DNA of 64,000 nucleotides from Trachythela sp. YZ-2020 (taxonomy: Eukaryota > Cnidaria > Anthozoa > Malacalcyonacea > Clavulariidae): positions 744,001 to 808,000 of the forward strand of contig JADLSH010000061.1 in the NCBI GenBank assembly GCA_016169945.1. The letters are read 5' to 3'. The stretch's first letter is position 1. The number at the start of each line of letters is the position of its first letter. Position numbers and translations under genes: made by a program. Positions 2,767 through 64,000 of this stretch are shown here, in pieces. The notes under the pieces are model-generated. The model was not told the DNA's origin, searched no databases, and saw only the letters and a program-made list of their open reading frames with translations.

Positions 2767-2915
2767 TGTTACCATAGGATATATAATGTTAGATATGTAT
2801 TGTAATGTATATGTAGGGGTAATGGAGGACACGAAGACAAGATGGCGGACATCACTATAAAAGCTAGTAATCTTGTACTTTTAGTTATTCTTTAATAAAT
2901 CCTATCCTGTTAACT
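2767..2915 (+). repeat. 5' LTR of Gypsy element
   Basis: It is identical over all 149 bp to 8384-8532. It starts TGTTACC and ends TTAACT rather than the usual CA. A TATA box (TATAAAA, 2856-2862) and a poly(A) signal (AATAAA, 2894-2899) fit an LTR promoter and terminator. Confidence 0.93.
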
Positions 2916-2932
2916 TGGAGTCAGGAGTCAGT

Positions 2933-4357
2933 ATGTCAAAAACTAAACCCCCAAAGTTAGATTTGGGTGCCTTTGAAGACAAGAGAGAATCAGTTGAGTT
3001 GTGGCTAGATCAATTTAACGACTGGTGTGTATTGCAAGGATTCAGAGACACAGCAAAACCTACAACCGATCCAGCTCATTGGAAAAGTGCACATCATGCC
3101 TCGGAGATAAGTGCGTTCAGACTGGCGTTACCTCTCGATGTTTTGAGAATGGTTAAATCGACTATTGTACCGACTATGGCCACAACGAGTGACGAAAATA
3201 ATAGAGATACGTTCATTGGTAATCCATGGTTATGGCAAAGAAAGTTGCTTTTTCATTATGCGGGTCAAGACACGGTACTCGCTGAGAGAATGAATTTTAT
3301 CGAGACTTGCAAGCAAAAACCTCATTAGTCTGTTGCTGAATTTGAAGCACGGTGCAAATATCATGGTTCTAAATGTGAATACAACAAAATGGCGAATCCT
3401 GAACAAGAACTTATTCGAGACAGATTTGTGACTGGAATTTACAACGATAAACTGAGAGCAGAACTTTTGCGGCATAGAAAAGATGATGGCTCAATAGCAA
3501 CCCTTGCTGAAGTGGTTAACAAAGCGAAAGCTTGGGAGGCAGCTAACAATATTAACACTAAAGTTATGGAGGCACAACATACTGATGAGCAAGTGAATTA
3601 TACATTCAGAAAACAACGACAAAATTCTACTGATGAACAGACATTTAAGAAAGGAAAAAAGTGTGGGTATTGTGGCCGAAATGAAACTCATAATAGGCGA
3701 ACATGTTCAGCTGGTAAACCCGGAGTTTACTGCAGAAACTGTTATGGAGCCAATCATTTTGCAATTGTTTGTCGAAGCCCTAAAGATCATTTTAAAAGAC
3801 AATGGATGGCTAAAAGGAAAGACAGTCAGGTAAATAGCCAAATTAATGTTTTGGATAATTCGTCTGATACTGATGAAGGGGAACAGTCAAATTATTATGC
3901 AATGTCTTTAGACAGTCAATGTGAATCAATTCATGATGTTTCAGGAAAGAAATCACCAAAAAAACTGTTCACATCCTTATCATTGTCTAGTAAAGGTAAT
4001 AAGTTCAAAAGAGTTCCTTTTCAAGTTGACACTGCGGCGACTTGTAATACAATGCCACTAGACATGTATCGAAAATTTGGGGGTGTCAGTAGTTTAAGGC
4101 CAACAAAGTCAACATTATTCTCATATTGTGGCCATTCAATAAAGCCGTTAGGAACTATCACCTTGCTATGTGAAGCACCAAAGAAGTTTGAATTTATAAC
4201 TTTTCAAGTTGTCGATGATAAGGACATACAAGGTAAGCCAGCCTTGCTTGGGGTTTCCGACTCTATTAAATTGGGACTTATCAAGTATGACAAAGCAAGA
4301 GTACGCATGGGAAGTGATAAGAAATCCACAGTAATAACTGATAGAGCAGAACATTTA
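2933..4357 (+). pseudogene. gag: Gypsy Gag with zinc knuckles and protease, interrupted
   Basis: The Gag start MSKTKPPKLDL leads into a capsid-like region. A TAG at 3326-3328 stops the frame. The same frame then continues without a shift through MANPEQELIRDRF to two Cys-rich knuckles (CGYCGR..., CRNCYGANHFAIVC) and an aspartic protease signature (VDTAAT). The coding match ends at about 4357, where unrelated GC-rich sequence begins. Gag packages RNA and the protease matures the polyprotein. A single in-frame stop with no other damage could be a recent mutation or a readthrough site; nothing distinguishes these here. Confidence 0.85.
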
Positions 4358-5300
4358 ATCCCCGAGCCGGCGCGAAGCGCCGTGCGAGGGTACTAATTCC
4401 GCTCGGTTATTTGCACCCGGGTATGTGAAAACATTGTGGAATGCAAAGTCACCCACCATTTTTTTTTGTCATGGACGGTTTTTTAAGTTATGCGCATGCG
4501 CGAGTTAAAGCCGAGAGAAAACTGGTAACTAGCAACATCATGATTGGCTAAGACAACGATTTTGTTTTTATATGCATTATACGTCAGAAAAATAACTGCC
4601 ATTTTGGCATTTTATTTTTGGCATTTATATTTTATAATGTATTTATATCATGGATTAAATATGAAAACTTTTTTCAAAATTGTACTCTGGAGTCGAGACA
4701 TATTACAAGATAATTTTTTTAGAGGGCTTTCACTTACTAAAGTCAATAAGAAAAGCAGTCGAAAAGCCGAGAAAAGACAGAATTTTCGAGTTTTAAAGCG
4801 TTTTAAACGGTTTGCAGTTTTGCCGTCAATTGTCATGCACTATAGTTTGTGGTTTTGAAATTGCGTAGTTCATCCTGTGTGGTCGGCAATACAACATTGT
4901 TTTAGTATTAATTCAAATGCGTTATATAGAAAAGAAACAACATATTTTATCTAAAAAACTTCATAGTATAAAAGTTGGAGTTTTATGACAATTTCAAAAC
5001 GTTTTGTGAGACGTGTAAGATTGAATTTTACAGTAAATCAAAGCCAAAGAAAAACACAATATAACATACCTACTTTATATAGTTGGGCAATTGGTAATTT
5101 TATTGTTAAAAGTAAAAATAATATCACAGTTTGTACAGAAAAGAAATATAGAGTATTTAAAATACAATGTTCGCTTGCGTGTTACCATGGTTACAGTAAA
5201 CGATTTAGTACTTCATGTTACAATATCTTTTGGGTTGTTCGGGAGAATAATTATTTGGTTCTAATGGCGAGGGGTTACTGCATGAATGTATTTCTAGTTA
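4358..5300 (+). mobile_element. foreign insert splitting protease from reverse transcriptase
   Basis: Gypsy coding similarity stops after the protease and resumes at GLTEDQFLKRY (about 5330). Between lies about 0.95 kb of non-coding DNA starting with a G/C-rich inverted motif. The outer ends look like weak inverted repeats (TAATCCCCGAGCC near 4358; the reverse complement of GGCGAGGGGTTA near 5267-5278). I see no clear target duplication, so the type of element is unknown. Confidence 0.55.
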
Positions 5301-8250
5301 AGAATAATGACTGTGTTATGTCCTGTAATGTAAGGGATGGTCTCACAGAAGATCAATTCTTAAAGAGATATTCTGAAGCCTTTACTGGTCTGGGAAACCT
5401 GGGTAAGCCTGTCTCATTTGTGCTTGATCCTAAAGTCCAGCCTGTGCATGCCCCAATACACAGAATCCCTGTTGCGAAGCGAGAGGGAGTAAAAAAGAAG
5501 TTAGATGAAATGGTTGCATCAAACAAACTTTTAAAGGTTGAAGAACCCACTGATTGGTGCTCTAATATGACTGTTGTTGAGAAAGTAAAAGAAAGTGGTG
5601 AAGTCAAAACCAGGATTTGTTTGGATCCAAGTCAAACAGTGAATAAAGCCATTATGAGGCCTAAGTATGCAATTCCAACTTTACAGGAACTTTTACCTGA
5701 ACTAAGCTTAAAAACGTATAAGTGTTTTACTATAGTTGATGCATTAGATGGCTTTACCCAAGTAAAGTTGGATGAAGAGTCGAGTTTTACCACCACCATG
5801 CAAACCCCCTGGGGGCGTTATAGGTGGCTTCGCCTGCCTTATGGTATATCCTCTGCGCCAGAGGAATTTCAACGACGAATACATGAAGCGTTAGATGGTT
5901 TACCCGGTGTTTTCAGCATTGCCGATGATATGTTGATATATGGCCTTGGTAATTCTCCAGAGGAGGCTGAAATTTCTCATGATAAACATTTGAATCTCTT
6001 TATGCAAATGGTTCTTGAAAGAAATTTGAAATTAAATCCTACTAAGGTCCAGTTTAAAATGAGAAGAATCGGATTTATGGGCCATATTATTACAGAAGAT
6101 GGTATTTTACCTGACCCAAACAAGGTAAAATCTATAGTTGAGATGCCTACTCCTGATGACAAGCGTTCAGTTCAGAGATTTCTTGGCATGGTCAACTATT
6201 TACATTCATTTTGTCCATCACTTTCTGATGTGGTCAATCCTCTGCGAAATTTGACAAGAACTGATGTTCAGTTTGTGTGGTCAGGAGCACATGAAGAGGC
6301 ATTTCAAAAAGCTAAGGCACTGATTGTAGATGCACCCTGTTTGGCATATTTTGACTACAAAAAACCTATTGTACTTCAAGTTGATGCATCAGAAACCGGT
6401 CTAGGTGGGGCAATGCTCCAGCCCGCAGGTCTTGGTAAGCACCAGCCTGTTGCTTACACCTCATCCACTATGCGTCCAAATGAAGTGTTATGGGCACAAA
6501 TTGAGAAAGAAACTTTGGCCATTTGTGCGGCATGTGAAAAATGGGATCTTTGGTTGTATGGTAAACAAATAACAATACATACAGATCATCAGCCTCTTGA
6601 AACCATCTTTAAAAAGCCTCTTGCTAAGGCACCTAGGAGGCTGCAACGGTTGTTGATGAGGTTGCAAAGATATGACATCAACGTTGTTTATAAGAAGGGT
6701 TCCAGTTTAGTTTTGGCGGATACTTTATCAAGAGCGCCCCTATCTACTACAGATGCTAGAAAGCAGAATAACTTTGATGTGTTTAGGTTGGAAGTTGAGC
6801 GACTTGACACCTTGCCTAACCCACAGCTTTTACCAAAGACATCCACAGATTTACAAGCTGCAACAACGAAAGACCCTGATTTGGTTCAGTTGGCGAAAGC
6901 AATTTCATCTGGATGGCCAGACGAAAAGTCTCAGCTTCCAGGTTGTATAAAGCCATACTGGTGTTTCCGAGATGAAATGTCTGTCCATAATGGTATAATA
7001 TATCGTGGAAAACAAGCTGTTATTCCAACGTCCATGTACAAAGAAATGCTGGCAAAGATCCACGCATCACATGCAGGTGCAGAAAGTAACATTCGAATGG
7101 TAAAGGATATTATTTACTGGCCTGGAATGCAGACTGCAATTAAGGATATGTGTCAGAATTGTGGACGATGTGCCCAATTTGGAAGAGAGAATTCTAAAGA
7201 ACCCATGAAGTCACAGCCTGTTCCACAGTATCCTTGGCAGTTTGTAAGTCAGGATTTAATGGAGTTCGAGTCAAGTAACTACCTGGTCACAGTTGATCAT
7301 TATTCTGATTTTATTGAACTTGATGAGTTAGACAACACGCTGTCATCGACGATTATTAAACATTCCAAATCACATTTTTCTCGTCATGGTATTCCAGAAA
7401 TACTTCTTTCAGATAATGGACCCCAGTATATCAGCACTGAATTTGCTGCGTTCTGTGACCTGCATGGTATAACCCATATCACTTCTTCCCCATATTGGCC
7501 AAAGGGTAATGGAAAAGCGGAGTCAGCCGTGAAGATAGTCAAAGCATTTATGAAAAAGTGTACTGATATTCAACTAGCCTTGCTGCTCTATAGAAATACG
7601 CCACAAGAGGGACATACGCTAAGTCCAGCACAGAGGAGTATGGGTCGAAGGACAAGACTTAATATTCCAGTAACCTCAGAGTTGCTTGTCCCTGATAAAG
7701 GCATATCAAAGTTGGTGCAGTTAGAAATCAATCTCAAGAAACAAAAGGCAAAGAAGTTTTATGATAGAACGGCGTCGGATGAACATCCAGATGTTCCAAT
7801 TGGAAATTATGTTTACAGTAAACCAATCCCTCGTAACAAATCGAGTCCGTGGCAGTTTGGTAAAGTTACAAGTACGCCTACCGTAAGGTCTTATGTAATA
7901 AGTACTGCAAAGGGTACTGTACGGAGAAATCGAGCTCAAGTTCCCCTGCCGCCCCACCTCCACCTCAAGAGAAGAAAAGTGATTTTCCAAGTTTTCAAAA
8001 TTTTCCTGCACCCGAGGCTGAAAAGATAGAAAGACGAAGTTATTCACAGATTTTAGATAAACAGTGCGGAGTACCCACAGTGTTAAGACAAGCGCAGGTA
8101 ATCCCTGACAATGTGACTTCTCCAAATACTGAGTTGAGTTTGTCAAGTACTGAACCTAATCCTTCCACTCTTGAATCTGGTGAGACTATGTACAAAACAA
8201 GATATGGTCGAGTAGTTAAACCGCCCAAGATTTTTGATCCTTCTGGGTGA
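5301..8250 (+). pseudogene. pol: Gypsy Pol: reverse transcriptase, RNase H, integrase
   Basis: RT motifs: DALDGFTQVKLDE, LPYGISSAPEEFQ and the catalytic box IADDMLIYG. RNase H: QVDASETGLGG through TDHQPLETIF. Integrase: HH-CC zinc domain (HASHAG...CQNCGRC), then catalytic Asp (SQDLMEF), Asp (LSDNGPQY) and Glu (GKAESAVK). All catalytic residues are visible. The frame is open to about 7940, where a slip separates the integrase tail from the last 80-100 codons, which end GRVVKPPKIFDPSG and a stop at 8250. The N-terminal ~105 codons of the long open frame (4985-5300) belong to the foreign insert, not to Pol. Confidence 0.9.
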
Positions 8251-42603: not shown

Positions 42604-45600
42604 TGTTGTGTTAACATTTTCGTGTTAAGAACAATTTAATATCAAAACCCAAAGCTACATAAGTCGCCATATTTATAACCTCGATTTGATGTTTGTTACT
42701 ATTCTAATTATTACAAAATATGCAGTGCTTCCACTACATCCTCCTTTCTTTATAAACAAAAATATTAACAACACATGCACTAACTATTAAGTTCTAATAT
42801 TTTTTCTTTAAACTGTTTTCTTCAATTTTCCTAACAAAAAAAACGTTTAGCTACTAATGTAAATATGTTTGTGTTTATTAGTCCAAAACAAAGTCTTTAA
42901 ACGTAGGAATCGGTTTTCTGAGGCGTCCAGATCTTCTTAAAGTTGTGGAAGGGATCTGTAGGAGTGGCTCTGGTTGTGACTTGGGTGGTTCAACACGTTG
43001 AGGTAAAGTCTGGATATCTGCTGGCTCAACACGTTGTGGCGAGGTCTACATATCTGCTGATGGTATAACACTTTGGGGTAGAATCTCGTATTCTGCAGGG
43101 TGGCTAGGGGTATTTGATTTCGGCCGGTTTACGAGCTCTCGAGCTTTCCGAATGTGAAACCGATCTCTTCTATACTTTCTTCCGTTTGTTTCAACTATAT
43201 AAGACAATTACTAACAACAGTTCCTCTAGACCAACAAGGAGATGAACTGGGCTTGATCTTACTTCTAATGTTCTCCCCTTCAACCAAAGGTGGTAAGGGC
43301 TTGGAAACTTTGTCATAGTATCGCTTGTTTTGTTGTTTCTTCTTGACTGTGGCTTTAATGATGGTTTTGGTGGATACTATGGCAGGTTCCAACAACTCGG
43401 ACTTAACAGGTAGGGTAGTTCTGGTTCTTCTAGACATTAGTTTCTCATTTGGCGACGCCAGTTCATTCGGAGTGTTTCGCATCTCCAAGATTGCTAACCA
43501 AGTATCGTTGCTCATCTTCAGTATTCTCTTCGCTTGCTTCACTGCTGCCTCTGCAGTTCCATTCCCTTTTGGGTAATGCAGTGATGAAGTACGGTGCTGG
43601 AAATTCCATTCCTCTGAAAACTTCTTATATTCACTACTTGTAAACTGGGGTCCATTGTCTGATATGACAAACTCTGGCACTCCATGTGTCGAGAAAATCT
43701 TCTTTGTTTGCAGAACCACATTCTGGGTAGTTGTTTCCGTCAGCTCTTCGATATCCCAATACTTCGTATGATTATCAACGACGACAACGTATGTGTCCTT
43801 CTTGACCGAAAACAAATCCGTACTAACGTACTGCCACCTACGTTTTGGAATGGGTTGGCTCTGCATTGGTTGTTTGGTTTGTTCTGGTTTGTGTTCTTGA
43901 CAAGTTTGACAATTATCACACAGATACTTGATATCGTTGTGTATCGTTGGCCAATAAAGTGAATCGCGAGCTGCTCTGATACATCTTTCTGCTCCCAAGT
44001 GAGAGCTGTGAATTTGCTCCAGCATACGGGGTCTCAACGCAGTAGGTATCAAAACTCTTGTGCCTCTGTAAATTATTCCGTCTTGAACGGACAATTCGTC
44101 ACGATAAGGCCAATATTCTCTAACGTTGAAGGGAACTTGTGTTTTGTCATTAGGCCAACCATACATGATCAAAGTTGCTAATGTCAACAAGTTATCATCT
44201 TCAGCTGTGACTTCAGCTACTTTCTTTAATGATTTATCTGTAACGTTGTGGTAGACATTTGGATCAATTTCCTCATTATCTTTCATCAATTCGTTTTCCT
44301 CAATGACCGCGAAAATATCATAATCATCTGATTTACTGCTATCTTTCTGACTTGTGGAAAATGGGGACCTTGAGAGGTGATCACTGCCTTCCTGGTACGC
44401 CACTTCTAAATGGTACTTTTGGAGTCGCAACATCATACGTTGTAATCTCTTTGGTGCGGAGTTAATACTCTTAGCTAAAATTGTCTCCAATGGTTTATGA
44501 TCAGTCAGCCTTTTATTTTTTCTCTTCTGTGCAAAAAATGGTCAAACCTTGTGCAACCGAACACAAGGCTTAGGCATTCTTTTTCAATCTGTGAGTATCT
44601 TCTTCAGATTGAGTTAGGGTACGACTGGCAAATGCTACAGGTCTTCCATTCTGAAACAGTACAGCTCCCAGCCCGTAATCACTAGCATCTGTTTCCAAGT
44701 TTCATCCAGGTCGTAGTACTGCAAAAGTTGAACGTGTCTTCGTGTATCTGTGACCAGATGAACTTCACACCTTCTTTGGTAAGGTTTCTTAGTGGCTCAG
44801 AGGTATGAAAAAGCTGCGGCAGGAACTTTCCAAGGTAGTTAATCATCCCAAGCAGCCGTCTAACTTCTGCCTTATCACGAGGACGGGGCATCTCCGTAAT
44901 TTCTTCCACTTTTGCAAGATCTGTAGCATCCCTTCAGCCGTCAAAATGTGACCGTTGTATTTTACGCTTTGCTGTTTGAATCTCAACTTTGACTTGTTCA
45001 GCTTCAAATTGCGCTCTCTACATCTGTCGAGTAGGCTGACGAGGTGCTGATCATGTTTTTTCACAGCTTCTTCATATGAATCACCAATTCCATAAACAAG
45101 CAAATCATCTGCGATAGTTTCTACACCATCCAAGTCCCCAATGATATCATGAACATGACTTTGGAACTCCTCTGGCGCACTAGATATACCAAACGGCATT
45201 CTGAGCCATTTATAACGGCCAAAAGGTGTATGGAATGTGGTCAGCTTTGTTGATTCTTCATCAAGCTTAACTTGTAGGAAACCATCTTTTGCATCTAAGA
45301 CTGTGAACACCTTCACCTTTCCGAGCGTTGATGTCACATCTTTCATAGTAGGCATACGGAACCTTGGGATCTTGATATGTTTATTTAATTCTTTAGGATC
45401 AAGACATACTCGAAGTTTCCCTGGCTTTTTCACGTACACTGCACTGTTGACCCAGTCTGTTGGCTCTTCAACTTTGGTGAGGATCTCCTGTTTAACCAAT
45501 TCGTCAAGCTTCGTCTTTACCTCGTCACGAAGGGTTACTGGGACACTTCTTGGCGGATCTTGCTTTGGAATCACTCCTTCTTTTAAACCAATATTGTAGT

Positions 45601-46440
45601 CTCCTATGTAACCAAGACCAGTGAACACATCATTGTATTGAATCAGAACATCTTCTTCGGTCAATTCGTTGTTGTCTGCTACAGCGTTAACAAGTAATTC
45701 GTATTTCACTTTAATGAGACCAAGTCCTTCTGATGTCGGTCCGGATAATAACGAGCATGGTGCGTCTTTAATCACCTGGAAGACTACTTTTTCTAGGGTT
45801 TGTCCTCCTATACGAATGTCTACAGTTACTTGACCGTCATGGACAATTCTGCTTCCACTGTACGTTGTCAACTTCACGTTGCTTTTCACCAACTCTGGTG
45901 GATCTGTCATTTCGTTGTACTTCGCCAGCTTTAAACAGTTTGCTGCAGCACCATTATCGATTTGCATCTTCACTTCTTTCCACCTTGAGCTTTTGGTGGC
46001 TTTAATCTCGGGCTGTACCATGTACTGCTTCACACCTTTGAATGCGTAGGTAGGGCTGTAAAGATCATCACTTTCAGAACTTGGATCTGAATCTACATCA
46101 CCGACTTGGTGTATATTCTTTCGTGGCTTGTATCTTGTTTCTCTATGTTCATCTTTCTTCGGTTGCGATGACTTGCATACTTTTGCAAAGTGATTTTTCT
46201 TGTGACACTTTTTGCATACCTGACCAAAGGCTGGGCATTATCTTGGTCTATGGCTTCTTCCGCAATATTTGCACATAACCGGTGTCTTCGGTTGCTCAAA
46301 TGCATTTTGTTTGAGACTTTCACCAAGCCTCTCTATTTGCTTCAATTGACTTTTGGATCTTTCAGCAGCTCTCACTAGATCTACGCACTGACTAGTGTCA
46401 AGGTATTCTCTCGGAGTAATCTACTTCATATTCCTTGATC
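42604..46440 (-). pseudogene. decayed Ty3/Gypsy element, minus strand
   Basis: From right to left: degraded knuckle region (46326-46093), protease (MQIDNGAAANC near 45970), RT (VLDAKDGFLQVKLDE, IADDLLVYG) in 46033-44843, broken RNase H (44900-44450) and integrase (CDNCQTCQEH, STDLFS, ISDNGPQF, GTAEAAVK) in 44490-43195. The tail GRLRKPIPTFKDF lies near 42900. It has several frameshifts. LTRs were not resolved; the left one may start at TGTTGTG (42604). It is related to, but clearly not the same family as, the element at 2767. It splits copy B of the repeated unit. Confidence 0.85.
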
Positions 46441-50892: not shown

Positions 50893-52499
50893 TTAGCCAC
50901 TATCTAGAATAGCAAGGAACGATTTAGAATTTCCCTCAGTTTCTGTGTTGGAATTCAGATCATCATCATCAATGGTACAGCTCTCTTCATCGTTGTTTTC
51001 AGACTTATTTGACATATGTTCCTCAACCAATTCAGAAGAATCCAAATTTTCCACATAATTATACAGTCTCACTAACATTTCTCATTTTCGGTACACAGAA
51101 CACAAGTTGGGGATAACTTTTCATCAGTCGTTGCTTGAGTTTAAAAGCTCTATATTTAGATGCATCCACATTCTCAGTGTCCTTAGCAATGATAACAAAT
51201 TTCTCCAGCAAATCTTTCATATACTTTATTTGCTTATTTCCGATGACCTCTGTCTCGATTACTTTCTTATGCATCAGTCAAATCCAAGCGTGCCCATCCC
51301 CCCCCGGGAATTTGACAAATTTTGTAAAAATGGTACTAATGCCCCCCCCCCCCGGTGGGGTCACAAACAAGTGAAAATGCCCCATGGTGGGGCCACAAGT
51401 CAGTGGCAAATTCCCCACCCCGGGGAACCTTATTCCACTTTTGAAAGCAGATATTATTACAAAATATAAGCACGTTAATGTTGGTACAAGACAAAACAAC
51501 TACATAGCAAATATTAATAATTTTTTACACATGTACTGAATGTTAAAAAGCTATATCAAATTTGCATTGTGTCCGTATGAACAAACCATGCTTCGTTAAG
51601 GAGCAAAATAATGTGGAACATTGCAGCCAAATTAAGTCTAAGCTTTGAGCAACGAGAACTACGACGTTTCGAGCGGGATACCCTTCGTCCGCTCCAGACA
51701 AAGGGCCTGCGCTTCCAGACGAAGCGCCCCCGGTTCGAAACTTACCTACACTGGCACCACAAAGCCGAAGTCTTTCTATTTGGCCAAATGGTTTTATTAG
51801 GTTCAAAATAGAAAATTTTCTAATGCCCTACCCCGGGCTAACATTAGCTTTCAAATCCCCCACCCCAGGGAGGAGCCAAAGTGTCAAATGCCCCACGGTG
51901 GCCCGGGGGGGATGGGCACGCTTGGATTTGACTGATGCATTACAGAAGACATCATAAGACTTCTCCTACACTGATGTAGATCTTCCAGTCTCCGATTGCT
52001 TCTTCGTCTCTCTGGTGAGAAATTTTGTATAATTGCAGTAGCAAACTTTGTGATAGCGCACTCTTTCCCCTGGATTTGCACAAGTATCCGTTCATCATTC
52101 TTTCTCTCGGCAGCTGTACGTAGAAGACCAGCATCAATTGTTTCTGCCAACATGAGTGGGGTTCTTCTTCTCTTCTTAGTTACCTGGTGTAAAACAAAAT
52201 TATTAAACTAAATATCTGCTAATAACAAGGTTGGATGTTTGTAGCATTAGAAACTACTTTACCCTAAATAAACTTAATTGATCAGAATTCAAGATATTTT
52301 AAAACCAAACCCGAGAATGTTGTGCACATTGCGCTAGTATATACGTGTCAAAATGACCATACCTTGTCTAGTGAGAACCAAGAGGCGTCTCTTCCACAAA
52401 TAATACATATCTCTGGGAGTACATGCTCGTTTCTTTTAGGCAGGGTCTTATTAGGTTCTACGACTGATTGACGTGTAATTTTTCGCCTTGGTTCTATTG
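50893..52499 (-). pseudogene. unknown Cys-rich protein gene, broken and interrupted
   Basis: Exon 52499-52363 encodes RRKITRQSV...EICIICGRDASWFSLDK and splices in phase to an exon starting at 52183 (VTKKRRRTPLMLAET). A frame slip near 52070 precedes YHKVCYCNYTKFLT in another frame, followed by a stop. A 660-bp element then splits the exon. Coding resumes at 51268 (KKVIETEVIGNKQIKYM, ASKYRAFKLKQRL, FCVPKMRN) to 50893, with another slip near 51065. The upstream end is cut by the transposon at 52500. The family is common in invertebrate genomes, often repeated; I do not know its function. The exon and its flank recur inverted at 63736-64000. Confidence 0.7.
51275..51934. mobile_element. 660-bp MITE inside an exon
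   Basis: CAGTCAAATCCAAGCGTGCC and its complement form the ends. ATGCAT occurs on both sides (51269-51274, 51935-51940). Removing element and one duplicate leaves the exon continuous. The interior is G/C-run rich. Confidence 0.78.
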
Positions 52500-52740
52500 T
52501 ATGGTGGCCCAGGACTGCCATCGAAATTTAATGCATTTTGAAGAAAAATTTTGCAATTGTTTTCTTTTTAATAAATTTTTTTTTTTTTTTAAATTTAAAA
52601 ATTTTCATTGTTTTTTTTTCGAACCAGCGGCCCAGAGCTGCCAATGGTATACCACAATGCATTGCGCAACTACCAGAGAACGTAATATGTAAGCTTACAC
52701 GAAGTATTTGAAAATAGATTGAGCGATTTCAAATTTCAAA

Positions 52741-53734
52741 ATGTCGGGCTTGTGGAAAAAGTACGAAGAAAAATAAAGGCGAAAAGGGACGTGAATACTA
52801 AACGAAAAGCAGAATCAAAGGCGGAAAATGCAAAAAAAGCGAGGCTACAGTCGGATGAGTTGATAGTCCAGCGCTTATCGTCAGCAGTCGAAGGCAAAGC
52901 TCAAAAATACTCCAGAATTGGGCCACGCGAATTTATCCCGTACAAGAAGTCTGATCTCACCTTAGAGGGAATAAAAGATGCTTGCTTAACCTACTTTCAG
53001 GACAAAGGATACATCAGCAAAGGAATGGAAGTAGATATTCTTGCAGGTGAACGTGGGCCAACCTGCAATTCACTGCATCAAATTCCTGATCTAAAGCTTA
53101 TCCATGTTAGGATAATTCCACGTGTTATTGAAGTGGAAAAGTCAGCAACATCCGTTCTGGACCGGAAGTGGGCTAGCACCTCTCTGCAAAGCAAGGATGC
53201 ATCTGCCAAGCACCCTTGAATGTGTGGAGAAAACCAACCAGTCTTTAGAGGATTACACAAAGAAAACAGTTCAAACCCATTTGCTGGCAAAGAGTTTTGC
53301 ACAACAACTCCAAGCAAAGTTCAGTGAAGTTGAAGATTCCGAGTCAATGAATCTGTTTTTACAACAACATATTCATGGGGAAAATAGAGATTTCAGGAGA
53401 ATATGTCACCATAGAAGAGTATATAAGTGGCAGCTTCAAGAAATATGTTAATAATGATGGAGAAATTTCAAATGAAAAATGTGCTTCATGCGAGAAAGCA
53501 GAATGTCTTGCACATTTTTCATTTGAAAAGAGTGATCGTAAGTTGATGCTGTTGGATATTCAGGGTGCAGGATATACACTGTGTGATCCTGAAATTGCTT
53601 CTACAGAGTTTCTGTCTGATGAGGACGAATACATGTATTGTGGTGGAAACCTGTCTGTTGGTGCCATAACAAATTTCTGCAAACTTCATAAATGCAATAC
53701 ATATTGCACAGCTATTGGACTTATGCCCATGTAG
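52741..53734 (+). pseudogene. alpha-kinase, left copy
   Basis: The start MSGLWKKYEEK is followed by a stop because one A is missing from a run (five here, six in the right copy). The frame then runs through a basic coiled segment, GPREFIPYKKSDLTLEGIKD and VDILAGERGP. Two further slips (about 53200 and 53370) are shared with the right copy. The last part is a clear alpha-kinase catalytic region: EEYISGSFKKYVNN, AECLAHFSFE, LMLLDIQGAGYTLCDPEIA, CGGNLS, then the zinc-binding end HKCNTYC. Alpha-kinases phosphorylate Ser/Thr in helices and are atypical protein kinases. The ATG is about 25 bp inside the TIR. The N-terminal ATP-binding part is only partly recognisable because of the breaks. Confidence 0.82.
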
Positions 53735-53975
53735 AAACTATTTGTTAAAAGACATGCAGGGGAATGGGGAACAGTGGGTGTGATTACAGATAGTTACATA
53801 ATGTTGTTGTGTTTTGTTCTGATGATATATTTCTCATCATGAATATTTTACAATGAACGAACCATAAAGACTGCTTTTAAATATTGATAGTACTTTAGTG
53901 TCTTTGATATTAAAATGAGGAGGTCAACTAGTAGTGTTCTAAAATTTTCATTGATAGTCATATGCATGATCTTTA

Positions 53976-56913
53976 TTATGTTTCAGAATCAGAAACATGC
54001 ATCGATTGTTGTGCAACATATCTTTCTTTTAAGCTGATATATGCTGCCACACAATTTTCAGGAGAAACTTGCTCAGGGTTAGGCAAAAGCTCTTGACATA
54101 TTTCACGAAACTCCTGTTCAAGGTAGTCATCAGTCCCCTCAAGGACACCAGATTGGATGGCTGCTTCTTCAAGTTGAGAATGTGAAACTTCAAATCCTAG
54201 AACGAAAAACAAAAATATGTAATTTAACCCATTGAGTCGCATTGTGCCCTGATGCGCCCTATTTTATTATTTTACTCTGTCTAATATTAGCCAGACTATT
54301 TTACCCATAAATGGGAGAGAGCAGGCACTTAATAGGTTAACCCATAGAATGTCAGTACTAATTTCTTGATGAGTAAATTTGGGCACATTGCCAGTGCGTC
54401 GTTAAATGGCAGATTCACCCCGAGAATATTGAAGGAATGCAAGGGTACATGTTGCACATGCAGTGTCAGGAAATTTTGGCAATGGGGGTGGACTTAATTT
54501 TTTTTTCAGACAACACCTAAGTTCCTTCTTGATATTTTTTTTGAAAACTGGTTTTGGTTTAATTTTTCCTCCTCTCTCAAAATTTGACAAATTTTGAAGC
54601 ATAACCCTAGGGGTGGACTTAGCCCCTCACCCATTTTCTACTTTTTCAATTGGGGGGGGGGGCTTCAGGCCCATTATCCCTCCACGGTTCCACCACCTAT
54701 GCAAGATTCACATTCAGTGGCTCTTCTAAATTCTCTCTCCATCACTACAGAGGGTAGTAATAAAATCAAGCTGTTTACCAACTAACTGGAAACAATAGCA
54801 CTCAACTATGCCAAAAAAATTTGTCAAGATCAATTATAGTGATGCTAAAATTATTGAAAATATAAGATTAAGCAGCAATACGCCCTACTCTGTCTAACGC
54901 CAGACGATTTTACTTGTCAAGGGGAGAGTCTCGCACTCTAATGGGTTAATTAAAAAAACTTAAACTACCTACCACATTGTTCAAGTTGGTATTCATGTGG
55001 AAAATTGTGAATGTGTTCTGGAATGCCATCTGGTAGGTATGTATCTTTTTGACGGCGTATCCTGTGTGTGTTCCAGATCACATCCTTCAATACATCCAAT
55101 TCTCTTTGTAAGAGTGGGATAAATAGGTAAGACATCAATGACCTACATGTAGATGTAAAAAACCCTAAATAAATCCTCATAATATCCAAACTGCAGAGCT
55201 TAATTTAAATTTTATCAGGATTCCCAATATTAGCTGGTTTTGCCCAGCTTTTTCTACAGCATATACAATTACTGGTTATTTCACTAACCTACATTTAAAC
55301 CAAAATATTTTCTCCTTGTGTCAAAGAAAAGTCTTCTGGCTTTTACAATGTACAGTTTTCAGGATATTCTTTGTTTGAATATTTGGATATGACAAAATTT
55401 CCAAAACTACATTGAAGTTTGAATCAAAATGGCTGGAAATGACATTTCGGAGGGTCTAAGTTTAAAATATTTGCAGGGAGATCGAGATGCCCATCATGCC
55501 CTGGGTCTAACAAGGGCCTGCTACACAAGTTACAATTAGATTACTACCCCTAGGTGATTCACTGGTATCTTTGGCACCACATTAGAGCATTGCATAGCTG
55601 CCTATTTCTTTCCAAAAAGCTGCCCAGTCCAAATTTTATTGGCAAAACCTGTTTTATATGGCAAATTATTGCAGTAAGATATCATGTAGTCAAACCTAAA
55701 CATGATTGTCCCAGGTAAAACTGTTACAAAATTAATGTCTAGCACACCATATAAATATAAAATAATCAAACCTGTCAGTTCTATCATGTGGATCATAGTG
55801 TTGCCTGTCCTTCAAATACAGCAATGGTGGCTTGAAATACTTTTCAAGGCGTTGGTGCAATTCTCTCACCACCTCTCAATCTATGAAGTGGAACACATAT
55901 TGTATTTAATTCACTTTATTGATAGCATATTACATTAGCTAGCTTAAGATTAACATGTGTACATAATTTATTATTATGCTCTCAGTGGCTTAGCACACAT
56001 CTGATTGGTCAATCAGTTATATCAAATGCATCTGATTGGTTAGTGGTATTAAAACCTCACATACTGTCATGTGTTATCCGCCACAAAAGACTCACTAACA
56101 CGGTATTATTTAATCATCCTGTTCCAGTATTTTTAAAAACTGCAATCTGTTTAGCAATAAAAATAATTGCATACTTGATTGGCTGTTGATGGTCCATATA
56201 TCACTGTCTCAAGAGGATCCATATCACCATGGTGCCTTCGAATAAAAGCATGCATGGTTGCCATTGTCCCAGTCTCTGTGCCCTTGTCAATCCTTATTTT
56301 ACTTGCAATAAGTTGTTCCTTATACAGGTGGTCTAGGTAAAAGCGACCAATCAATTTTGGGTCAGAGTTGCCTGTCCACACTCTAAGCCACAGTAGTTTG
56401 CGACTGGCCGTGTCTAAACAACCGTATACGGCAAGAGGGAAAGTATCCTTCTGAAAACCCATTAATTTTGCATGACCATCCATTGAATGTACCCAATTCA
56501 CTCCTTTGGTAACGAAGTTACCTCTGATTCGTGGTCGATTTCGTGCGAGTACGTTCTTCCAGACCTTGGGGGTCAAGGTCATACATCACCTCATTGACAA
56601 GTTTTCTTGGCACATTTAGTTGGTGAACCTGACGAACCTTTTTATGCATTGCGCGATAGCCAAGCAATTTACCTGGTCCATCTAGCTCTTTGGCAACAGC
56701 TTGCTGAACATCAGCAACTTCAACGTTATAATCCGTGTAAAATATCTCAAAATGGCGTAGTCGTCTGTCCAGACTTCGCAGGCTCCACGTGTACTGAGGA
56801 AAATCTCGCGAAACGAAACTAAGAATCTCTGTACGTTGATATTGCGCCTTCACATATTCCTTTAAGGATTCTTTTAACTGATCGTCATCTCGCCAAACAG
56901 CATATCGCTGCAT
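53976..56913 (-). pseudogene. DDE transposase, left copy, broken
   Basis: A mirror of the intact gene at 59322-62261. Private damage: two bases missing after LEERT (about 56550) and one base missing in the IERWW motif (about 55877), which creates a stop. Exons otherwise match: 56913-56169, about 55877-55769, 55137-54967 and 54191-53976. Confidence 0.88.
54228..54338. mobile_element. TTAA MITE in transposase intron 3
   Basis: CCCATTGAGTCGC...AATAGG is flanked by TTAA. It is a relative of 27018-27122 and is mirrored at about 61895-62005, so it inserted before the inverted duplication. Confidence 0.7.
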
Positions 56914-57357
56914 ATTATAGCAAGTTTTACTCCATACAATACAATATTATATTTGTCGTGATTTTATCTCGCTATAAAAGTTAAAAACCGTCGAAATACT
57001 TCGTGTAAGCTTACATATTACGTTCTCTGGTAGTTGCGCGCAATGCATTGTGGTATACTATTGGCAGCTCTGGGCCGCTGGTTCGAAAAAAAAACAATGA
57101 AAATTTTTAAATTTAAATTTAAATTTAAATTATTAAAAAGAAAACAATTGCAAAATTTTTCTTCAAAATGCATTAAATTTCGATGGCAGTCCTGGGCCAC
57201 CATAGATGTGCACGAACAAGTGTTAAGTACATGTAAAGAGAACGTCGACATTTTATATCCCTCAGATAAGTACAGTTACGTCGCAGGAAACCGAGCATGT
57301 GGTTTGCCTTGGATACGATGTTTGAGATATGAGGTGACCATTTTAAGTTACTGGTAA

Positions 57358-58335
57358 CTAAATTCCAAGATCTTTCTGTGATGACTTAAAGCAGATCTGT
57401 TCCGAATGTAGGCGGTGTGCGGGTGTCTCGGTGGAACGTTTAAGAGAAAATCTTACACCATTACACTTTTTCAGATTTAACTTCAACTCAGAAATACAGG
57501 ACCATTGAAATAGGAATTGTAGGTCTGCTTGAAGGAGATTGGTATCGTGAGGATTTTCAATGACACGATAACACTTGGTACCATATGCGAACATTGAAAC
57601 TTTGCTGTTTGTTGCTGCGTCGGAAAGGTTGTAACATAAATTAATAAGAGCAACGGACCAACAATACTACTTTGTGGTACGCCTGATGCCACATCTAAGT
57701 ATGCTGATGAAACCCCGTTGACTACAACGCGCTGTTTACGGCCTTATAAATAGTCGCGGAAAACCAGGAGAGGGGACAAATAACACCAAATTGGGAGAGT
57801 TTCAGAATAAGTTATCGTGGGGAACAGAATCGAATGCTTTGGAGAAATCTAGATCTATCATGTCACTCTCTTTTCCGCGATCTAATGCTTTGTCGATATT
57901 GTAAACAACATCAAGGAGCTGAGTGATGCAAGATCTTCCTGCACAAAAGCCGTGTTGTTGACCATGAAGGAGAGGTTTGACGATATATAGGACTCGGTTG
58001 TGAACGACATGCTCAAGAACTTTAGACGCAAGGGATAATAACGAAATTGGATGGTAATTACTGATGATATGGGTTTCACAAATTGTTGGGACAGGAACTA
58101 CATTTGCATACTTCCAATCCGCAAGAACCTTACCAAGGGCAAAAGATTTATTAAATAGGGCTGTGAGCGACGGAGCAATGACTGATATCCCATCTGGACC
58201 CGTGACTTTCGTTGTGGATAAGCTAGGCAACAAACCGCGGGTTTCTTTTACTGAGACTTCGTAAAACTCAGTTGGAATGTCGGGTACAGCAGAAGGCGAT
58301 GGAGCACATGGATTGTTGCGGCGAGGAAGGAACAC
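57358..58335 (-). pseudogene. non-LTR reverse transcriptase fragment
   Basis: RT blocks in pieces: VTGPDGIS, NYHPISLLSLASKVLEH, QHGFCAGRSC, IDLDFSKAFDSVPH, ASGVPQSSIVGPLL, then MFAYGTKCY where the catalytic YADD/FADD box is expected but altered, and LQFLFQWSC. Frame breaks lie near 57800 and 57600. It is a different lineage from the LINE at 10100. Confidence 0.82.
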
Positions 58336-58679
58336 AGATGCAATGTGGTAAACGTCATCTCAGCTAGCGTAATGGTATCAGGTAATGATGTTATATTCGA
58401 TTTGTAATTTCCAGAAATCTTTAAGATCAGTTTCTATTGATTGCCCAGGTCCATAATACATTCACGTTTCTTATTTTTAATTAGTCGTTTAGCAGTCCGA
58501 TGGAGTTCTCGAAATATCTCCAAAAGCTCTGCCGAATTTGATTTTTTGCTCGTTTCCTCATGGATTCCTTCTCATGTAGTACATGAACTATCTCTCTTGA
58601 GAGGTAAACTTCAAATATTTTTTTGCACTTCACTTGGTTGAACTAGAATACTGGGTTTGGTGGATAATCCAAGTGAGTA

Positions 58680-58870
58680 GATATATACACAATTTAAGAC
58701 CTAACCAATAACGGTTGCGAAAAATGCAACACTAGGTCCTCTGGCAGGAATTGAACCCTGCGATTCCGGTGCAGCGCTCTAACCAACTGAGCTACAGAGG
58801 CCAGTTGCTGAGCTGTAACCGTCGTAAGTTCTGTATATATAGGTTATCGGGTGTGCGGGTTGTGATAAGG
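58680..58870 (-). mobile_element. tRNA-like SINE head
   Basis: On the minus strand, 58801-58738 reads like a tRNA: CCTCTGTAGCTCAGTTGG (A box), GAGC, then GGGTTCAATTCC (B box) and a closing CAGAGG stem. The anticodon loop (CCGGAAT) lacks T33 and the variable loop is missing, so it is not a functional tRNA. An 80-bp segment (58600-58683) recurs at 58868-58950 and flanks it. Confidence 0.6.
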
Positions 58871-59321
58871 TAAACTTCAAAGATTTTTTTGCATTTCACT
58901 TGGTTGAACTAGAATACTGGGTTTCGTGGATAATCCAAGTGAGTAGATATCTACTCACTTGGGTTATCTCTTGAGAGGTAAGGTGGGTTTGTAGATCGCG
59001 AGGTTTGTTTGCCCGGAACTGATATGTATGGTGGCCCAGGACTGCCATCGAAATTTAATGCATTTTGAAGAAACATTTTGCAATTGTTTTCTTTTTAATA
59101 AAATTTTTTTTTTTTTTTTTAAATTTAAAAATTTTCATTGTTTTTTTTTCGAACCAGCGGCCCAGAGCTGCCAATAGTATACCACAATGCATTGCGCGCA
59201 ACTACCAGAGAACGTAATATGTAAGCTTACACGAAGTATTTCGACGGTTTTTAACTTTTATAGCGAGATAAAATCACGACAAATATAATATTGTATTGTA
59301 TGGAGTAAAACTTGCTATAAT

Positions 59322-62261
59322 ATGCAGCGATATGCTGTTTGGCGAGATGACGATCAGTTAAAAGAATCCTTAAAGGAATATGTGAAGGCGCAATATCAAC
59401 GTACAGAGATTCTTAGTTTCGTTTCGCGAGATTTTCCTCAGTACACGTGGAGCCTGCGAAGTCTGGACAGACGACTACGCCATTTTGAGATATTTTACAC
59501 GGATTATAACGTTGAAGTTGCTGATGTTCAGCAAGCTGTTGCCAAAGAGCTAGATGGACCAGGTAAATTGCTTGGCTATCGCGCAATGCATAAAAAAGTT
59601 CGTCAGGTTCACCAACTAAATGTGCCAAGAAAACTTGTCAATGAGGTGATGTATGACCTTGACCCCCAAGGTCTGGAAGAACGTACTCTCGCACGAAATC
59701 GACCACGAATCAGAGGTAACTTCGTTACCAAAGGAGTGAATTGGGTACATTCAATGGATGGTCATGCAAAATTAATGGGTTTTCAGAAGGATACTTTCCC
59801 TCTTGCCGTATACGGTTGTTTAGACACGGCCAGTCGCAAACTACTGTGGCTTAGAGTGTGGACAGGCAACTCTGACCCAAAATTGATTGGTCGCTTTTAC
59901 CTAGACCACCTGTATAAGGAACAACTTATTGCAAGTAAAATAAGGATTGACAAGGGCACAGAGACCGGGACAATGGCAACCATGCATGCTTTTATTCGAA
60001 GGCACCATGGTGATATGGATCCTCTTGAGACAGTGATATATGGACCATCAACAGCCAATCAAGTATGCAATTATTTTTATTGCTAAACAGATTGCAGTTT
60101 TTAAAAATACTGGAACAGGATGATTAAATAATACCGTGTTAGTGAGTCTTTTGTGGCGGATAACACATGACAGTATGTGAGGTTTTAATACCACTAACCA
60201 ATCAGATGCATTTGATATAACTGATTGACCAATCAGATGTGTGCTAAGCCACTGAGAGCATAATAATAAATTATGTACACATGTTAATCTTAAGCTAGCT
60301 AATGTAATATGCTATCAATAAAGTGAATTAAATACAATATGTGTTCCACTTCATAGATTGAGAGGTGGTGGAGAGAATTGCACCAACGCCTTGAAAAGTA
60401 TTTCAAGCCACCATTGCTGTATTTGAAGGACAGGCAACACTATGATCCACATGATAGAACTGACAGGTTTGATTATTTTATATTTATATGGTGTGCTAGA
60501 CATTAATTTTGTAACAGTTTTACCTGGGACAATCATGTTTAGGTTTGCCTACATGATATCTTACTGCAATAATTTGCCATATAAAACAGGTTTTGCCAAT
60601 AAAATTTGGACTGGGCAGCTTTTTGGAAAGAAATAGGCAGCTATGCAATGCTCTAATGTGGTGCCAAAGATACCAGTGAATCACCTAGGGGTAGTAATCT
60701 AATTGTAACTTGTGTAGCAGGCCCTTGTTAGACCCAGGGCATGATGGGCATCTCGATCTCCCTGCAAATATTTTAAACTTAGACCCTCCGAAATGTCATT
60801 TCCAGCCATTTTGATTCAAACTTCAATGTAGTTTTGGAAATTTTGTCATATCCAAATATTCAAACAAAGAATATCCTGAAAACTGTACATTGTAAAAGCC
60901 AGAAGACTTTTCTTTGACACAAGGAGAAAATATTTTGGTTTAAATGTAGGTTAGTGAAATAACCAGTAATTGTATATGCTGTAGAAAAAGCTGGGCAAAA
61001 CCAGCTAATATTGGGAATCCTGATAAAATTTAAATTAAGCTCTGCAGTTTGGATATTATGAGGATTTATTTAGGGTTTTTTACATCTACATGTAGGTCAT
61101 TGATGTCTTACCTATTTATCCCACTCTTACAAAGAGAATTGGATGTATTGAAGGATGTGATCTGGAACACACACAGGATACGCCGTCAAAAAGATACATA
61201 CCTACCAGATGGCATTCCAGAACACATTCACAATTTTCCACATGAATACCAACTTGAACAATGTGGTAGGTAGTTTAAGTTTTTTTAATTAACCCATTAG
61301 AGTGCGAGACTCTCCCCTTGACAAGTAAAATCGTCTGGCGTTAGACAGAGTAGGGCGTATTGCTGCTTAATCTTATATTTTCAATAATTTTAGCATCACT
61401 ATAATTGATCTTGACAATTTTTTTTGGCATAGTTGAGTGCTATTGTTTCCAGTTAGTTGGTAAACAGCTTGATTTTATTACTACCCTCTGTAGTGATGGA
61501 GAGAGAATTTAGAAGAGCCACTGAATGTGAATCTTGCATAGGTGGTGGAACCGTGGAGGGATAATGGGCCTGAAGCCCCCCCCCCCCAATTGAAAAAGTA
61601 GAAAATGGGTGAGGGGCTAAGTCCACCCCTAGGGTTATGCTTCAAAATTTGTCAAATTTTGAGAGAGGAGGAAAAATTAAACCAAAACCAGTTTTCAAAA
61701 AAAATATCAAGAAGGAACTTAGGTGTTGTCTGAAAAAAAAATTAAGTCCACCCCCATTGCCAAAATTTCCTGACACTGCATGTGCAACATGTACCCTTGC
61801 ATTCCTTCAATATTCTCGGTGAATCTGCCATTTAACGACGCACTGGCAATGTGCCCAAATGTACTCATCAAGAAATTAGTACTGACATTCTATGGGTTAA
61901 CCTATTAAGTGCCTGCTCTCTCCCATTTATGGGTAAAATAGTCTGGCTAATATTAGACAGAGTAAAATAATAAAATAGGGCGCATCAGGGCACAATGCGA
62001 CTCAATGGGTTAAATTACATATTTTTGTTTTTCGTTCTAGGATTTGAAGTTTCACATTCTCAACTTGAAGAAGCAGCCATCCAATCTGGTGTCCTTGAGG
62101 GGACTGATGACTACCTTGAACAGGAGTTTCGTGAAATATGTCAAGAGCTTTTGCCTAACCCTGAGCAAGTTTCTCCTGAAAATTGTGTGGCAGCATATAT
62201 CAGCTTAAAAGAAAGATATGTTGCACAACAATCGATGCATGTTTCTGATTCTGAAACATAA
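59322..62261 (+). CDS. DDE (integrase-like) transposase, intact, 4 exons
   Basis: Exons are 59322-60062, 60357-60466, 61096-61265 and 62041-62261. All have GT/AG ends and matching phases, giving 413 residues. The N-terminus has a helix-turn-helix-like region (ILSFVSRDFPQYTWSLRSLDRRL, about 30-52). The catalytic core is VHSMDGHAK (D146), SKIRIDKGTETG (D210) and IERWWRELH (E249). The Glu codon is the second of exon 2, so splicing is needed for activity. The C-terminus includes WNTHRIRRQKDTYLPDGIP. The start is about 85 bp inside the left TIR. It would cut and join the element ends in the nucleus. It is distinct from, but has a similar layout to, the transposase at 408. The gene has no visible damage, so this copy may still be active. 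Confidence 0.87.
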
Positions 62262-62502
62262 TAAAGATCATGCATATGACTATCAATGAAAATTTTAGAA
62301 CACTACTAGTTGACCTCCTCATTTTAATATCAAAGACACTAAAGTACTATCAATATTTAAAAGCAGTCTTTATGGTTCGTTCATTGTAAAATATTCATGA
62401 TGAGAAATATATCATCAGAACAAAACACAACAACATTATGTAACTATCTGTAATCACACCCACTGTTCCCCATTCCCCTGCATGTCTTTTAACAAATAGT
62501 TT

Positions 62503-63494
62503 CTACATGGGCATAAGTCCAATAGCTGTGCAATATGTATTGCATTTATGAAGTTTGCAGAAATTTGTTATGGCACCAACAGACAGGTTTCCACCACAAT
62601 ACATGTATTCGTCCTCATCAGACAGAAACTCTGTAGAAGCAATTTCAGGATCACACAGTGTATATCCTGCACCTGAATATCCAACAGCATCAACTTACGA
62701 TCATTTTTCAAATGAAAAATGTGCAAGACATTCTGCTTTCTCGCATGAAGCACATTTTTCATTTGAAATTTCTCCATCATTATTAACATATTTCTTGAAG
62801 CTGCCACTTATATACTCTTCTATGGTGACATATTCTCCTGAAATCTCTATTTTCCCCATGAATATGTTGTTGTAAAAACAGATTCATTGACTCGGAATCT
62901 TCAACTTCACTGAACTTTGCTTGGAGTTGTTGTGCAAAACTCTTTGCCAGCAAATGGGTTTGAACTGTTTTCTTTGTGTAATCCTCTAAAGACTGGTTGG
63001 TTTTCTCCACACATTCAAGGGTGCTTGGCAGATGCATCCTTGCTTTGCAGAGAGGTGCTAGCCCACTTCCGGTCCAGAACGGATGTTGCTGACTTTTCCA
63101 CTTCAATAACACGTGGAATTATCCTAACATGGATAAGCTTTAGATCAGGAATTTGATGCAGTGAATTGCAGGTTGGCCCACGTTCACCTGCAAGAATATC
63201 TACTTCCATTCCTTTGCTGATGTATCCTTTGTCCTGAAAGTAGGTTAAGCAAGCATCTTTTATTCCCTCTAAGGTGAGATCAGACTTCTTGTACGGGATA
63301 AATTCGCGTGGCCCAATTCTGGAGTATTTTTGAGCTTTGCCTTCGACTGCTGACGATAAGCGCTGGACTATCAACTCATCCGACTGTAGCCTCGCTTTTT
63401 TTGCATTTTCCGCCTTTGATTCTGCTTTTCGTTTAGTATTCACGTCCCTTTTCGCCTTTATTTTTTCTTCGTACTTTTTCCACAAGCCCGACAT
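62503..63494 (-). pseudogene. alpha-kinase, right copy
   Basis: The start MSGLWKKYEEKIKAKRD is open (six A). It shares the two middle frame slips of the left copy. Privately it lacks two bases after HFSFE (about 62709) and one base in DIQG (about 62671), so the catalytic part is out of frame for a short stretch. Otherwise it is nearly identical to 52741-53734. Confidence 0.82.
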
Positions 63495-63735
63495 TTTGAA
63501 ATTTGAAATCGCTCAATCTATTTTCAAATACTTCGTGTAAGCTTACATATTACGTTCTCTGGTAGTTGCGCAATGCATTGTGGTATACCATTGGCAGCTC
63601 TGGGCCGCTGGTTCGAAAAAAAAACAATGAAAATTTTTAAATTTAAAAAAAAAAAAAAATTTATTAAAAAGAAAACAATTGCAAAATTTTTCTTCAAAAT
63701 GCATTAAATTTCGATGGCAGTCCTGGGCCACCATA

Positions 63736-63872
63736 CAATAGAACCAAGGCGAACAATTACACGTCAATCAGTCGCAGAAGCTTATAAGACCCTGCCTAAA
63801 AGAAACGAGCATGTACTCCCAGAGATATGTATTATTTGTGGAAGAGACGCCTCTTGGTTCTCACTAGACAAG
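63736..63872 (+). pseudogene. flanking-gene exon, inverted copy
   Basis: It encodes RRTITRQSVAEAYKTLPKRN... CIICGRDASWFSLDK and ends at GTATGG. It is the counterpart of 52499-52363 with about six base differences in the first 60 bases. The gene continues beyond the window, so whether this copy is intact cannot be seen. Confidence 0.6.
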
Positions 63873-64000
63873 GTATGGTCATTTTGACACGTATATACTA
63901 GCGCAATGTGCACAACATTCTCGGGTTTGGTTTTAAAATATCTTGAATTCTGATCAATTAAGTTTATTTAGGGTAAAGTAGTTTCTAATGCTACAAACAT

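Follow-up and report, generated by a model that had tools for sequence, protein, structure and literature searches.

A cnidarian DNA transposon, very probably of the IS3EU type, with a decayed alpha-kinase gene opposite its transposase

The 64,000-nucleotide stretch of DNA analysed here, in the following called the window, carries a DNA transposon of ~4.7 kb twice and in mirror-image orientation (52500-57204 and 59027-63735). This element is very probably an IS3EU-type DNA transposon that contains an alpha-kinase as its second gene. Judged by their sequence, the kinase copies in the window are pseudogenes of the alpha-kinase family PF02816. For the intact relatives, the combined reading of an IS3EU-type element whose kinase is directed at the element's transposition machinery is reasonably probable, and this estimate applies chiefly to the identity of the element. 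The locus is composed of the following features:

52235..52499, outer flank belonging to the inverted repeat (agrees with 63736-64000 in 261 of 265 columns)
52500..57204, left arm (transposon copy 1, 4705 bp), with TA...TA at its ends
52500..52709, plus strand, left terminal inverted repeat of copy 1 (202 of 212 columns identical to the right one)
52741..53734, plus strand, putative alpha-kinase pseudogene, copy 1 (PF02816; arm comparison; tblastn of P0001 and P0003)
53976..56913, minus strand, DDE transposase gene of copy 1, disrupted, in comparison with copy 2, by small indels near 56546 and 55866
56994..57204, minus strand, right terminal inverted repeat of copy 1 (repeat comparison and alignment)
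57205..59026, unique spacer between the arms, with unrelated inner flanks
57802-58359, minus strand, reverse transcriptase fragment in the spacer (PF00078, E 3.9e-12)
59027..63735, right arm (transposon copy 2, 4709 bp; terminus search and arm alignment)
59322..62261, plus strand, DDE transposase gene, copy 2 (exons 59322-60062, 60357-60466, 61096-61265 and 62041-62261)
62503..63494, minus strand, putative alpha-kinase pseudogene, copy 2 (PF02816; arm comparison; tblastn)

Each copy of the transposon contains two converging genes, with the kinase gene beginning just inside one terminal inverted repeat (TIR) and the four-exon transposase gene beginning inside the other, and the stops of the two genes lie ~240 bp apart. 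A sequence-only reading had paired a DDE transposase with a converging alpha-kinase frame in both copies, and the coordinates and opposite strands of these genes confirm this arrangement. The TIRs span ~210 bp per copy, end with TATGG...CCATA and are identical within a copy in 202/212 and 208/215 columns, respectively; they are of the TATGGTGGCCC type. The 20-nt terminus TATGGTGGCCCAGGACTGCC occurs exactly four times in the window, and these occurrences correspond to the four element ends. Elsewhere in the window it was not found even when up to 3 mismatches were allowed, and shuffled sequences gave a chance expectation of none. The spacer between the arms additionally contains a 93-nt direct repeat (58602-58694 and 58868-58960, 94% identical), which encloses a stretch that appears tRNA-like by eye; ARAGORN called no tRNA. 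In other parts of the window (2885-8029 and 43195-46237), frames resembling a Gypsy-type gag-pol polyprotein were recognised by eye, one of them being open over 1020 aa.

The assignment of the converging frames to the alpha-kinases is borne out in both copies by the PF02816 profile (cut-off 21.3 bits). Copy 1 matches with E 1.1e-25 and 91.3 bits over 53351-53734, corresponding to profile positions 82-185 of 185, and copy 2 with E 1.2e-05 and 26 bits over 62503-62694. In copy 1, the kinase gene is disrupted by a frameshift near 52768, which is found only in this copy, by a deletion joint near 53194-53212 and by a second frameshift near 53345-53373, which is common to both copies; its C-terminal part (53351-53734) is open. 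In copy 2, the N-terminal part (63494-63039) is open and extra differences are present near 62674-62706. Both arms lack the residues that correspond to ~155-256 of the intact relative P0001 (436 aa), and thus also G234, F236 and R237 of the glycine loop; at the deletion joint, an AGG codon takes the place of K257 in the alignment. The D-x-Q and H-x-C-x3-C motifs are readable in copy 1. The glycine loop, the catalytic lysine, D-x-Q and the zinc-type histidine and cysteine residues presumably have their usual roles in alpha-kinases. As the glycine-loop segment is gone and the frame is shifted, neither of the two window copies is expected to work.

The two copies are the arms of one inverted repeat, with 4687 of 4714 alignment columns being identical, and they share the same kinase lesions; thus, they count as one observation. 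The claim that two copies carry the kinase therefore holds in so far as both are present, but not in the sense of two witnesses. The kinase deletion and the second frameshift are common to both arms, which indicates that this damage predates the duplication, while the arm comparison also revealed further small differences that are private to one arm. Because the inner flanks are unrelated, the inverted repeat stops where the two transposon copies end on their inner sides and encloses a unique spacer of 1.8 kb; on its outer side it reaches the window end at 64000. A 6-bp target-site duplication (TSD) was not seen at either copy, where CTATTG/GATGTG and GATATG/CAATAG agree in 2/6 positions each, and since the locus is an inverted repeat that ends at the elements, these flanks are possibly not the original ones. 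The inner flank 6-mers GATGTG (57205-57210) and GATATG (59021-59026) match in 5/6 positions in direct orientation, as would be seen if a single target had received the inner ends of both copies. This may be chance: the match was noticed post hoc among four pairings, and random 6-mers of the window reach 5/6 at a frequency of 0.6%. The inverted repeat may reflect either a real rearrangement, e.g. a transposition event joining the ends of two sister copies, or a fault of the assembly.

The transposase gene of arm 2 is predicted to contain GT-AG introns and four exons that are open as 413 aa. Exon 1 of this copy is 89% identical to P0121, and window exon 1 matches the family PF24764 (rva_4) with E 3.6e-05 and 24 bits, i.e. 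below the cut-off of 26. The full-length transposase relatives P0168 and P0200 match rva_4 with E 1.8e-19 and 1.5e-22, respectively. Neither of them matches IS3 or IS481 in NCBIfam, and P0001 is likewise without a usable NCBIfam relation; a search of solved structures with the A2 profile returned none at E <= 1. A second rva_4 protein occurs in the window, and at an identity of 25% its residues line up with the D, D and E positions of the transposase. This second, distant transposase with an integrase core is located at 393-2373 (E 3.6e-57; 25% identical to P0168). Because tblastn of P0001 matches only the two arms, no such kinase is present near it.

A protein search with the kinase retrieved 213 relatives at E <= 0.001, and the pairing of transposase and alpha-kinase has been published in the IS3EU passages of PMC12730594, so that alpha-kinases on this type of transposon are neither rare nor new to the literature; the earlier notion was that they are rare outside host genes. 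PF02816 covers the whole domain of P0001 (E 1.1e-32, 114.1 bits). Among the best 120 of the 213 relatives, with gapped rows set aside, the catalytic positions are almost invariant (G234 in 117/117, K257 in 116/117, D378 in 112/112, Q380 in 111/112 and D388 in 111/112), and so are the zinc-type positions (H364 in 112/112, H422 in 106/107, C424 in 107/109 and C428 in 104/108); since similarity to the window determined the ranking of these 120, they do not represent the family at random. As related kinases retain the catalytic residues, a role of the kinase in the service of the transposon is likely. The AlphaFold model of P0001 (mean pLDDT 80.7, pTM 0.56) matches the TRPM7 kinase 1ia9 with E 5.6e-18, and the structure search with this model returned alpha-kinase structures with TRPM7 ChaK ranked first; by sequence, TRPM7 and eEF2 kinase lead the matches. 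The conserved N-terminal domain of the kinase matches no Pfam family. Its predicted fold is ubiquitin-like with weak matches, which is suggestive only, and the family consensus of the kinase has a lysine/arginine-rich N-terminus.

Organism names are available for 11 kinase relatives among the matches listed. Ten of these are anthozoan (Exaiptasia, Dendronephthya, Actinostola, Actinia and Paramuricea) and one is from the hemichordate Saccoglossus, which makes a cnidarian host likely. Gene models within the family are named TRPM6-like, vwkA-like and eEF2K. In viral contigs, none of 171 pattern matches obtained with alignment A1 and none of 58 obtained with alignment A2 was confirmed, and in prokaryote genome contigs the same applies to 104 pattern matches obtained with A1; these collections are by design without animal genomes and thus have no bearing on animals.

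The view that the kinase is carried by the transposon gains support from the PF02816 match, from the position of the gene between the TIRs and from relatives that in some cases share contig sizes with transposases. For 8/56 kinase matches on contigs of at least 10 kb, the contig size exactly equals that of a listed transposase match, and the seven shared sizes are 196,530; 241,276; 4,408,652; 374,143; 171,206; 268,778 and 8,837,949. This comparison comprised 118 kinase and 118 transposase matches with a given size, drawn from the best 120 of 213 and the best 120 of 768, respectively, and when sizes were shifted by 1-200, the chance expectation was a mean of 0.0025 and a largest value of 1. The top-ranked matches of both searches are located on 196,530-bp contigs, and the pair on 374,143 bp corresponds to LOC110237033/LOC110237035 of Exaiptasia, with P0118 apparently being a second, shorter model of the same Exaiptasia gene as P0062. 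The other 48/56 kinase matches have no transposase partner among the matches listed; since only the best 120 of 768 transposase matches were covered, the linked fraction is a floor and no test of whether both genes are always linked. An equal contig size suggests co-location on a contig and is not proof of one element, and two of the seven shared sizes are in the megabase range, where both genes could co-occur by chance. P0029 (482 aa, on a 2,112,660-base contig) provides separate evidence that kinase and transposase sit together, because in this single ORF ~50 residues of the transposase N-terminus are found upstream of the full kinase, pointing to a rearranged element. P0017/P0163 and P0105/P0166 are closely related pairs (distances 0.19 and 0.13) on two contigs. 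Over seven pairs, kinase and transposase distances correlate with r 0.79 (154/5040 permutations as good), and without P0105/P0166 this correlation is lost (r -0.12, 477/720 permutations as good). The correlation hence hangs on one close pair, and long co-descent of kinase and transposase is not shown.

A tentative mechanism can be outlined for the intact relatives. Cutting and joining of the TIR ends would be the task of the transposase, and the transcripts of the two genes would start close to their respective TIRs. The lysine/arginine-rich N-terminus, read by eye, may bring the kinase to the nucleus, where the predicted ubiquitin-like domain could pick its partner; phosphorylation of the transposase or its DNA complex might then tune transposition. 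The transposon's own transposition complex as target of the kinase is, taken by itself, a possibility that we favour with caution. According to the passages on IS3EU in PMC12730594, TET genes are named in 11 transposon lineages, whereas the alpha-kinase is named only together with IS3EU, and this would fit a partner-bound gene and a transposase-directed target. Loss of the kinase in cis is possible, as shown by the dead window kinase beside an open arm-2 transposase. The more far-reaching idea of an animal transposon lineage that switches its own transposase by phosphorylation, using its own alpha-kinase with an undescribed ubiquitin-like N-terminal domain and a type of control shared with fungi, appears rather unlikely at present.

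Alternatively, in the same element the kinase could be directed against host nuclear proteins, such as chromatin or silencing factors, and act as an anti-silencing passenger with a role comparable to that of fungal TET. This is conceivable to about the same degree as an action on the transposition complex, and the identity of the element is common to both readings. The basic N-terminus of the family consensus, if taken as a nuclear import signal, is in line with a host target, and so is the TET gene that is located beside the kinase in fungal IS3EU and proposed to aid in the escape from silencing (PMC12730594, IS3EU passages); the restriction of the kinase to IS3EU in the same passages, which differs from the promiscuity of TET, argues against it. 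That the kinase belongs to the host, lies inside or beside the transposon by chance and has no role for it is highly improbable: the naming of family gene models as host kinases, the distance correlation that vanishes without one close pair and the dead window kinase next to an open transposase frame would agree with this, but the location between the TIRs, the contig sizes equal to those of transposase relatives, the joining of both genes in P0029 and the same pairing in the fungal IS3EU described in PMC12730594 speak against it.

Our data suggest that coral and anemone gene models can be transposon genes and not host kinases where their names are TRPM6-like, eEF2 kinase, vwkA-like or myosin-heavy-chain-kinase-like. 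The P0001-type family, with ~440 aa, is cloneable and offers a direct way to ask what use a protein kinase is to a transposon.

Among the listings obtained from open-licence PubMed Central, which included 30 of the 35 papers containing IS3EU, no report of a cnidarian transposon with an alpha-kinase was found, and Repbase may describe animal members. Judged by the passages concerned, PMC13294678 and PMC6505742 are chance co-mentions. According to PMC4469406, the alpha-kinase family is highly expanded in rusts, where two columns of its table give 79 and 39 for PF02816; kinases borne by IS3EU could explain this expansion.

Compared with alpha-kinases of known structure, i.e. TRPM7 ChaK, eEF2 kinase and myosin heavy chain kinase A, the family shares the fold, the lysine, D-x-Q and the zinc-type histidine and cysteine residues, and its sequence match to TRPM7 is confined to the kinase part. 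It differs from them by being transposon-borne and by its conserved N-terminal domain without a Pfam family. Like the TET/JBP passengers of fungal transposons, as portrayed in PMC12730594, the kinase is an enzyme gene that travels with a transposase, the enzyme being a different one. IS3EU elements are described with TA..TA termini and TSDs of usually 6 bp (PMC10045372, in its account of this group) and with TAYGG..CCRTA ends, and in their TET-bearing fungal families the alpha-kinase gene is oriented opposite to the transposase gene (PMC12730594, 2025, IS3EU passages). Unlike these fungal families, the window element has no room for a TET gene within the ~240 bp between the stops, and unlike IS3EU in general, its kinase is broken and no TSD was seen at its locus, the comparison being based on published descriptions in these passages. 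It resembles the IS3EU/GingerRoot group, as characterised there, in its TA...TA ends, in TIRs of over 30 bp, in the DDE transposase and in the opposed alpha-kinase gene. Thus, termini, TIRs and opposed kinase fit IS3EU, the transposase, which is IS3/IS481-like in that group, may do so as well, and the element is very probably a new, decayed member.
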